From Nitrososphaeria archaeon (GTDB lineage Archaea; Thermoproteota; Nitrososphaeria; Nitrososphaerales; JAAOZN01), in assembly GCA_029775855.1 (NCBI GenBank), contig JARVJZ010000003.1:62001-126000 (forward strand): a DNA stretch of 64,000 bases, read 5' to 3'. The notes below the pieces were generated by a model. That model was not told the DNA's origin. It worked only from the letters and a program-made list of their open reading frames with translations, and ran no database searches. Position numbers and translations under genes: made by a program. Position 1 is the first letter of the stretch. Each line of letters starts with the position of its first letter. This document shows positions 51,858 to 55,542 of this stretch, one piece after another.

Positions 51858-51947
51858 TGGACCGGGGGGGATTTGAACCCCCGACCTTCCGAGCTCTCGG
51901 CTCTAGGCTTGCAAGTCGGATATTCTACCAGACTGAACTACCGGCCC
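51858..51947 (-). tRNA. tRNA-Ala (TGC anticodon) with a 16-base intron
   Basis: Acceptor GGGCCGG/CCGGTCC with the G3-U70 wobble that identifies alanine tRNAs; T8, A9; D-stem GTTC/GAAT; anticodon stem TCCGA/TCGGA with loop CTTGCAA; T-stem GGGGG/CCCCC with loop TTCAAAT; discriminator A; no CCA. After position 37, 16 extra bases (about 51894-51909) interrupt the anticodon arm at the canonical 37/38 site. Splicing would need the archaeal endonuclease and RtcB. Confidence 0.93.
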
Positions 51948-53643: not shown

Positions 53644-54084
53644 TTAGATTTCTTCGGTTTCTTCCTTCTTTTCTTTTTTTGTTTGTTTCAACCCTTCTTT
53701 TAAGCCAGCTAAGGTTTCAGCATACTCTTTTGATATCGCGCCGCTAGCTATCAAGCTTGCAACTGAGTTCGCTGAGGCTTCGCCCGTTATCTTGCCTATT
53801 GTGCCTCTGAGCTGCCTCCATTTTAACCTCGAGTTACCACTTTTGGAGATATAGATTATTCCGAGAACATCCCTTGCGTTTATGAATGTTACATCTCTAA
53901 TCTTCTTTAGCGTAACTTTATCCGCTGCTTCTACATATATAGCGCCTCTGTCGCCCTCTTTTTCTGGAAAGACCTCTTTATCCCTTAAGTAGCTTTCCGG
54001 TATGAATGAGCGGCAGGTGTTGTTGATGAGAAATCGTCGGAAGCTCTCTAGTGTCGCGGTTGTCTCTATGTAAACCAAGCGCAT
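53644..54084 (-). CDS. Hypothetical archaeal protein
   Basis: 146 residues. MRLVYIETTATLESFRRFLINNTCR starts the protein, then EVFPEKEGDRGAIYVEAADKV and RQLRGTIGKITGEASANSVASLIASGAISKEY; the tail is a charged KKEKKEETEEI helix. No family recognised. It lies 31 bases upstream of the crotonase gene on the same strand; divergent from the mevalonate operon. Confidence 0.65.
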   Translation of the reverse strand: MRLVYIETTATLESFRRFLINNTCRSFIPESYLRDKEVFPEKEGDRGAIYVEAADKVTLKKIRDVTFINARDVLGIIYISKSGNSRLKWRQLRGTIGKITGEASANSVASLIASGAISKEYAETLAGLKEGLKQTKKEKKEETEEI

Positions 54085-54137
54085 TCACCTTGGTAGAGCA
54101 GTATATTTACCTCCTTTTTTTAGGGTTAGCCTAGTGG

Positions 54138-54146
54138 TAATATATA
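54138..54146 (+). promoter_or_regulatory. TATA box of the mevalonate operon leader
   Basis: TAATATATA is centred 25 bases before G54167, where the structured leader begins. That spacing is the canonical archaeal distance, so transcription should start at the first base of stem P1 and the message would have a leader of about 104 bases. Confidence 0.55.
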
Positions 54147-54166
54147 GGTGTGTATATATGTTACTC

Positions 54167-54254
54167 GGGCGGACTGTGAAGACTCTAGCCCTACTGAAAG
54201 GTGAAGAGGATAGGCCTAATATGGCGCCCCTCAGCTTGAGTGCTGAGTTCGCCC
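54167..54254 (+). ncRNA. Structured leader RNA, candidate riboswitch or small RNA
   Basis: An 88-base element folds as a three-way junction. P1: GGGCGGA (54167-54173) pairs with TTCGCCC (54248-54254), seven pairs with one G-U. P2: AGCCCTA (54187-54193) pairs with TAGGCCT (54211-54217) with one mismatch. P3: CTCAGC (54230-54235) pairs with GCTGAG (54242-54247), stacked on P1. The heptamer GTGAAGA occurs twice (54176-54182 and 54201-54207), in box-C-like positions with CTGA nearby, though the layout does not match a canonical C/D RNA. It is not a tRNA: the D and T arms do not fit. It lies just before the UbiD-like gene. Confidence 0.5.
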
Positions 54255-54257
54255 AAA

Positions 54258-54270
54258 GATGTGATACATC
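54258..54270 (+). promoter_or_regulatory. Hairpin touching the start codon
   Basis: GATGT-GAT-ACATC forms a five-pair hairpin that ends one base before the TTG at 54271. It could mask or position the start codon and may act with the preceding RNA element. Confidence 0.45.
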
Positions 54271-55542
54271 TTGAGTCTAAGAAGTTACCTTCAGCAGACA
54301 GAAGTTGAAGTTGTGCACAAAGAGTTATCCCCCGATTTAGAGATAGCGGATTACCTGAGAAAGTGTAAGAAACCTGTTTTGTTTAAAAGAATCAAGGGTC
54401 ATGAAGAATTCAGTGTAGCAGGAAACCTTCTGAGCTCAAGGAATACTCTAGCCTCGCTTCTAGGCGTAGATGTTAAAGGCTTAGTTAAGCATCTGGCATG
54501 CATGTTATCCTCACCTTCAAAATATAGGTTAGTGGATGATGCTTCGTGGCTTGAAAAACAACAAACTAAACCAGACTTAGCCTCAAAGCTCCCCTTAACG
54601 ACTTTTTACAAGCGCTATCCAAGGAAATACACCTCTGCAACCGTGGTCTTTGCAAAAGACCCTGAAACTGGGAGGCAGAATGCTTCAATACACCGCTTAA
54701 TGCATCTCAAAGGCAACAGATTTGTGGTCAGACTTGTACCTCGAGACCTATTCTCTTTCTACCAGAAGAATAAAGAGCACGGCGTTGACACAGAAGTTGT
54801 AGTCACTTGCGGTCTTCACCCTCTTATCTGCCTAGCTGCAGCAACCTCCTATCCAGCCCTAGATGAATTAGAATTCGCAAACACTCTACTAAACGGCAAA
54901 TTAGAATGCTACAATCTCGATGGATTTAACGTGCCAAAAGATGCGGAAGTTGTTATGAAAGGAAGAATCCTTCACTCAGAGGAAGCGGATGAAGGACCGT
55001 TTGTAGACCTTACAGGCACTTGGGACACAATAAGAAAGCAGCCTATACTTGAAGTCGAAACACTCTACCATAGAAAAGAGCCCATATGGCAAGTCATTCT
55101 GCCAGGAGGTAGTGAGCATCGCCTACTTATGGGTGTGCCACAAGAGCCGCGAATATTCACGGTGGTGCAGAATGCTGTTAACTCTGTGCAGAGTGTTGTG
55201 CTCACGGAAGGAGGCTGTGGCTGGCTGCATGCTGTTGTTTCTATTAAGAAGAGGGTTGAGGGTGATGGGAAGAATGCCGGTCTAGCTGCCCTTGCAGCTC
55301 ATCCAAGCTTAAAGAGGGTTATTGTAGTTGATGATGACATCAACATCTATGATCCTTTGGATGTTGAGTGGGCATTGGCTACTAGGTTTCAGCCGGATAA
55401 GGGACTTGTAGTTATAAGTGGTGCTCGCGGCTCCTCCCTTGATCCATCGAGTCAGAAAACTGGAGTAACCTCTAAGTGGCTAATAGATGCAACACTACCC
55501 TTAGACGCCAATAGAGAACACTTTACCAAGATCGAAGAGTAG
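54271..55542 (+). CDS. UbiD-family decarboxylase, probable anhydromevalonate phosphate decarboxylase
   Basis: 423 residues, TTG start (stops at 54244 and 54262 exclude earlier ones). UbiD features: ATVVFAKDPETGRQNASIHRLMHLKGNRFVVRL, EFEPG-like acidic patch replaced by ATSYPALDELEFANTLL, and MKGRILHSEEADEGPFVDLTGTWDT. Archaeal UbiD proteins in an operon with aconitase X subunits decarboxylate trans-anhydromevalonate phosphate to isopentenyl phosphate and need prenyl-FMN. It is the first gene of the operon and is preceded by the structured leader. Confidence 0.88.
   Translation: MSLRSYLQQTEVEVVHKELSPDLEIADYLRKCKKPVLFKRIKGHEEFSVAGNLLSSRNTLASLLGVDVKGLVKHLACMLSSPSKYRLVDDASWLEKQQTKPDLASKLPLTTFYKRYPRKYTSATVVFAKDPETGRQNASIHRLMHLKGNRFVVRLVPRDLFSFYQKNKEHGVDTEVVVTCGLHPLICLAAATSYPALDELEFANTLLNGKLECYNLDGFNVPKDAEVVMKGRILHSEEADEGPFVDLTGTWDTIRKQPILEVETLYHRKEPIWQVILPGGSEHRLLMGVPQEPRIFTVVQNAVNSVQSVVLTEGGCGWLHAVVSIKKRVEGDGKNAGLAALAAHPSLKRVIVVDDDINIYDPLDVEWALATRFQPDKGLVVISGARGSSLDPSSQKTGVTSKWLIDATLPLDANREHFTKIEE

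Follow-up and report, generated by a model that had tools for sequence, protein, structure and literature searches.

A C/D box sRNA gene whose guide is split by a predicted tRNA-type intron in a Nitrososphaeria archaeon

A C/D box RNA has been reported to target the first anticodon position of tRNA-Leu(CAA) in Pyrococcus (Clouet d'Orval et al. 2001, cited in PMC7994747). The RNA described here is encoded in a window of 64,000 nucleotides from a Nitrososphaeria archaeon, and it is likened to the Pyrococcus sRNA by function and anatomy. Both have C/D and C'/D' boxes, a terminal stem and a guide beside box D that matches C34 of tRNA-Leu(CAA). The two differ in that the guide studied here is split by a predicted bulge-helix-bulge (BHB) intron.

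The archaeal BHB motif is defined in PMC6379350 and PMC4731332, and its described substrates are pre-tRNAs, pre-rRNAs and pre-mRNAs (PMC6379350). The predicted intron has two 3-nt bulges, a 4-bp helix and a cut after the second bulge nucleotide in common with known archaeal BHB introns, and EndA and RtcB are encoded in its genome. It departs from them in its host, a modification-guide sRNA, and in its weak outer helix, which corresponds to a relaxed form of the motif. BHB processing of a stable RNA that is neither tRNA nor rRNA has a precedent in the permuted SRP RNA of Thermoproteus, which is processed by a heteromeric EndA (PMC4731332). There, the BHB joins RNA ends into a circle, whereas here it would excise an internal intron. 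In Haloferax, a C/D guide in the intron of tRNA-Trp likewise ties tRNA splicing to a guide acting on C34 (PMC7994747, PMC7714728). That sRNA resides inside an intron; the arrangement proposed here is the mirror image, with an intron inside the sRNA. Yeast U3 snoRNA genes carry a spliceosomal intron inside a C/D-class RNA gene. An intron in such a gene is what they share with this locus, but they are eukaryotic, their intron is spliceosomal and U3 is not known to act as a methylation guide. A literature search that covered mainly open-access papers yielded BHB introns in tRNA, rRNA and a few mRNAs, and no report of an intron inside a C/D sRNA. The function of the sRNA is a known one, and the architecture of its gene, with a predicted tRNA-type intron within the guide, would be new.

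The sRNA gene, an 88-nt putative intron-bearing precursor, extends from 54167 to 54254 on the forward strand, as do all features below unless marked otherwise. Its predicted splicing would yield an RNA of 65 nt. Covariance model R1, which was built from five sequences with the spliced sequence of this element among them, has a single match in the window, and that match is this element (60.1 bits, E = 6.6e-14). A preliminary description had placed an 88-base element here upstream of a TTG start, preceded at 25 bases by a TATA box. Both parts of this description hold. In the sister species G002, an element 91% identical occurs at the same place, and the terminal stem covaries over 32 orthologs, which exceeds what chance would give. 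The TATA-like element TAATATATAGG (54137-54147) precedes the 5' end of the sRNA by about 25 nt and is also kept in G002. It would serve as the promoter and define the transcription start of the sRNA.

C/D kink-turns have a characteristic geometry in which a stem is followed by one unpaired nucleotide and box C, and box D stands directly before the stem. In this element, strands GGGCGGAC (54167-54174) and GTTCGCCC (54247-54254) form a terminal stem of eight pairs. The preliminary description had read it as a closed stem of seven pairs. A single unpaired T at 54175 separates the 5' strand from box C, while box D (CTGA, 54243-54246) abuts the 3' strand. The doubled GTGAAGA recorded earlier corresponds to boxes C (54176-54182) and C' (54201-54207). 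Box C is followed by the D' guide CTCTAGCCCTA (54183-54193) and box D' (CTGA, 54194-54197), and box C' begins 3 nt (AAG) further on. This internal arrangement, CTGA-AAG-GTGAAGA at 54194-54207, is aligned in the orthologs, and all four boxes are recognized by sequence and by their positions in alignment A3. Comparison with uninterrupted orthologs identifies the D guide as two pieces, a 5' exon part GGAT (54208-54211) and a 3' exon part CTTGAGTG (54235-54242). The complete order is GGGCGGAC-T-GTGAAGA-CTCTAGCCCTA-CTGA-AAG-GTGAAGA-GGAT-(23 nt)-CTTGAGTG-CTGA-GTTCGCCC.

Judged by its boxes, its stem and its orthologs, the element at 54167-54254 is a C/D box 2'-O-methylation guide sRNA. The first lead to this class came from sub-threshold Rfam matches at the element to the archaeal C/D families sR41, sR23 and sR1. 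No curated Rfam C/D family is matched at threshold, the best being sR41, whose 15.3 bits stay below the gathering score of 54. Because the sR families are narrow and each represents a single sRNA, this shortfall leaves the C/D class open. Together, the Rfam leads, the anatomy and the orthologs supersede the earlier statement that the element matches no nameable class, and they bear out one of the alternatives offered with it, a distinct small RNA whose end is processed. Box C is a UGAAGA variant of the RUGAUGA-like reference sequence, and this variant is common among the orthologs.

At a cut-off of E<=1, R1 identifies orthologs in 340 out of 400 genomes from the order, and the matches listed have E values from 1e-18 to about 1e-8, far below 1e-6. 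The ortholog in G004, from another family of the order, has the same boxes and guides and a compensated stem, GGACAAAC/GTTTGTCC. Among 32 aligned orthologs, seven of the eight stem pairs have changes on both sides and 94.1% of cells are paired, compared to 20-48% when the stem is slid out of register. The covariation score of the stem is 0.594, versus 0.310 +/- 0.027 in shuffled alignments and at most 0.26 in slid ones. Alignment A3 was made with the model, hence is biased to the modelled structure, but its fit is largely one of sequence, most of the 65 positions being unpaired. The check for covariation across homologous leaders proposed in the preliminary description is passed by the stem in these 32 orthologs. 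A fibrillarin gene is present in the genome (PF01269, E = 6.2e-89). One ortholog, on the reverse strand of locus L027 (G019) at about 1500-1575, has a D'-C' spacer far longer than the others (TGTACGTGGATAG).

Each of the 30 uninterrupted orthologs in the alignment has GATCTTGAGT, unchanged, within its D guide. This sequence is complementary to ACTCAAGATC, the anticodon-arm sequence of tRNA-Leu(CAA) both in the relatives and in the genome studied here. Searching with ACTCAAGATC located the organism's own tRNA-Leu(CAA) gene near 125033 of G000:C1 (locus L093). A search with CACTCAAG in this genome alone was uninformative, and a tRNA family search did not place the multi-intron tRNA-Leu(CAA) gene among its best loci. 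The anticodon arm of the mature tRNA reads GCAGA-CTCAAGA-TCTGC. The spliced guide would form 11 contiguous pairs with this arm, ten of them Watson-Crick, and its fifth nucleotide upstream of box D (G54238) pairs with wobble C34. Put to the same pairing test, the unspliced guide fails, making seven contiguous pairs with the tRNA. These matches suggest that the D guide directs 2'-O-methylation of C34 in tRNA-Leu(CAA). Guide and target do not covary, as the anticodon arm is invariant, and the argument consists of this invariance, the fifth-nucleotide rule and the Pyrococcus target.

The tRNA-Leu(CAA) gene itself (L093:1413-1575) appears to contain about four short introns, of which one lies 5' of position 32 and another in the T arm. 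CGCCTAA-ACTCAAG has its complement in CTTGAGTTAGGCG, a stretch of an upstream intron, so that the anticodon would be masked in the precursor.

The D' guide has a core, TAGCCC, that is kept across families, with TATCCC in two f10 members. Against rRNA, its best pairing, at SSU local positions 610-620, is equalled by 110 of 300 shuffles and is not significant. SSU rRNA was rejected as its target on this ground and because G003 and G004 do not have the pairing. A 12-bp match of the D' guide at a 23S locus was likewise rejected, as an artefact of unoriented flanking DNA.

Among the aligned orthologs, only those of G000 (the genome studied here) and G002 carry a 23-nt insert, AGGCCTAATATGGCGCCCCTCAG (54212-54234), that splits GGAT from CTTGAGTG. 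The insert is absent from the other 30. It folds together with its flanks as GAGG-(AU^A)-GGC...GCC-CCUC-(AG^C)-UUGAG, in which a 4-bp helix separates two 3-nt bulges, one on either strand. The central helix pairs GAGG (54206-54209) with CCTC (54229-54232). The 5' bulge AT^A (54210-54212) would be cut at 54211/54212 and the 3' bulge AG^C (54233-54235) at 54234/54235. An inner helix of GGC (54213-54215) and GCC (54226-54228) is conserved in both species. The splicing endonuclease cuts after the second bulge nucleotide, and a tRNA intron of the same genome (L062), read by hand, has the same cut geometry. The outer helix amounts to 2 bp in strict register, and its weakness therefore points to the relaxed BHB form. 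These features lead us to read the 23 nt as a tRNA-type BHB intron inside the guide, which is predicted to be removed by splicing.

A scan of every junction pair across the 88-nt element applied a BHB rule that demands a Watson-Crick 3-4-3 motif and an inner helix of >=3 bp. Exactly one junction conforms, and it restores the conserved guide GGATCTTGAGTG. Shuffled introns meet the rule with p = 1.35e-4 when only Watson-Crick pairs are counted and with p = 7.9e-4 when G-U pairs are allowed. Between G000 and G002, two of 65 exon positions and six of 23 intron positions differ. All six intron differences fall in the loop, and the splice-site helices are conserved. Outside the element, the two species are identical in 51 of 88 columns of the upstream intergenic region, in 8 of 16 downstream columns and in 934 of 1269 columns of the adjacent UbiD open reading frame.

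Predicted folding differs between the two precursors. In that of G000, GAGG/CCUC forms with a probability of 0.94 and the inner GGC/GCC helix with about 0.11, since a GCC/GGC hairpin competes. In that of G002, the inner helix reaches 0.95 and GAGG/CCUC 0.36-0.39. The 'two further hairpins' of the preliminary description turn out to be partly this splice-site helix and partly pairing that would be lost upon splicing.

A second, uninterrupted copy of the sRNA was not found in G000 or G002 at the sensitivity of the covariance model, and a third congener, with a genome 72% complete, yielded no convincing copy, which leaves two genomes as carriers of the intron. G000 and G002 are congeners and therefore represent one evolutionary event. 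Its gain is apparently recent, to judge from its presence in one genus and the uninterrupted ortholog family across the order.

The genome encodes machinery suited to such an intron. It has an RtcB gene and two tRNA_int_endo genes, homologs of EndA (L180 and L181, G000:C1). One EndA homolog has its best matches in crenarchaeal EndA (3p1z, 2cv8, 3ajv, 2zyz) and, by eye, retains the Tyr, His and Lys where they are expected. The other seems to lack the catalytic His; it may therefore be a structural subunit, and hence the EndA of this intron-rich archaeon is likely heterotetrameric. Of the EndA types, the heterotetrameric one recognizes BHB motifs most loosely, according to PMC4731332. Elsewhere in the window, an intron-containing tRNA at 51858-51947 on the reverse strand, probably tRNA-Ala(TGC), is found by Rfam and missed by ARAGORN.

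We consider it very probable that this is a C/D sRNA guiding modification of C34 in tRNA-Leu(CAA) whose guide is split by a 23-nt BHB intron. A TATA box of its own would drive transcription of the sRNA. The tRNA-splicing endonuclease would cut after GAGGAU and after CCUCAG, and RtcB would ligate the halves, with exon ends GAAGAGGAU and CUUGAGUGCUGA, to give the junction GGAUCUUGAG, in which GGAU meets CUUGAG. The 65-nt mature sRNA would then carry the contiguous guide GGAUCUUGAGUG, and L7Ae, Nop5 and fibrillarin would assemble on its C/D and C'/D' motifs.

Alternatively, the 23 nt might be retained and jut out of the guide as a hairpin, across whose base GGAU and CUUGAGUG would stack in a working RNP. 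GAGG/CCUC does fold stably in the G000 precursor and would bring the guide halves together. However, this helix takes up the last two nucleotides of box C' and the GG of the guide, so that both guide and C' would be occupied, and the unspliced guide is left with its seven contiguous tRNA pairs. Moreover, splicing is the only reading that predicts a bulge of exactly 3 nt on either side together with a junction at which the guide is restored exactly. Retention of the hairpin is thus improbable.

Splicing of the intron might also act as a switch. An endonuclease kept busy with intron-rich tRNAs would limit the supply of complete guides, so that methylation of C34 in tRNA-Leu(CAA), which has several introns of its own, would be coupled to the capacity for splicing; the unspliced form would have other targets or serve as a mevalonate leader. 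Such a role is a long shot.

Less probable still, and in our judgement quite unlikely, is that the insertion destroyed or retargeted the D guide, leaving a decaying or re-specialised sRNA that acts, for example, through TCAGCTTGA on SSU rRNA near local position 977. When the guide of this genome was at first read unspliced against rRNA, it gave no target because it is interrupted. Unspliced, the guide does match SSU rRNA over 9 bp at TCAAGCTGA, but this match pairs positions 4-12 from box D, whereas the criterion is positions 3-9. Decay is also at odds with exons that are nearly unchanged between two species with diverged flanks, with the retention of the target tRNA, and with the finding of no other copy of the guide RNA in the genome.

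The gene that follows the sRNA encodes a UbiD-family decarboxylase (54271-55542; Pfam UbiD_N, UbiD and UbiD_C; TIGR00148) and heads a UbiD-AcnX-AcnX_swivel operon; it is a neighbour and no part of the sRNA. The UbiD, AcnX and AcnX swivel set is known from the archaeal modified mevalonate pathway. Among the loci examined, UbiD stands beside the sRNA only in G000 and G002. In G003, G004 and G019, the sRNA is upstream of a homolog of the window ORF at 53644-54084, and in G015 it is at neither this homolog nor UbiD. The linkage of the sRNA to this ORF family is a long-lasting one. The ORF, on the reverse strand, is conserved; its homologs (67-70% identity) adjoin the same sRNA in G003, G004 and G019, and it has no match in Pfam or NCBIfam.

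A cis-acting leader of the UbiD-AcnX mevalonate genes, be it a riboswitch or an RNA thermometer as the preliminary description had suggested, is rejected as scarcely credible: the element does end 16 nt before the TTG in G000 and G002, where a folded RNA could affect translation, but in other families and outside the genus the RNA adjoins different genes (the orthologs of G003, G004, G019 and G015 are away from UbiD), conservation tracks the C/D boxes, guide and stem, G002 does not keep the last hairpin (AAGATGTGATACATCTT) said to touch the TTG start, and no Rfam riboswitch is found at threshold. The intron loop at 54215-54224 is AT-rich (CTAATATGG; CTATATAAG in G002), and as it precedes the UbiD start by about 50 nt, it could have a second role as operon promoter.

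An apparent riboswitch candidate is thereby resolved as a guide sRNA. If its intron is spliced as predicted, the guide sequence would be created only by splicing, and gene finders that expect a contiguous guide of 10-12 nt would misread or miss such genes. It would also mean that the small RNAs responsible for tRNA modification are susceptible to invasion by tRNA-type introns. A gain confined to one genus would open the acquisition of introns by non-coding RNAs to direct study.
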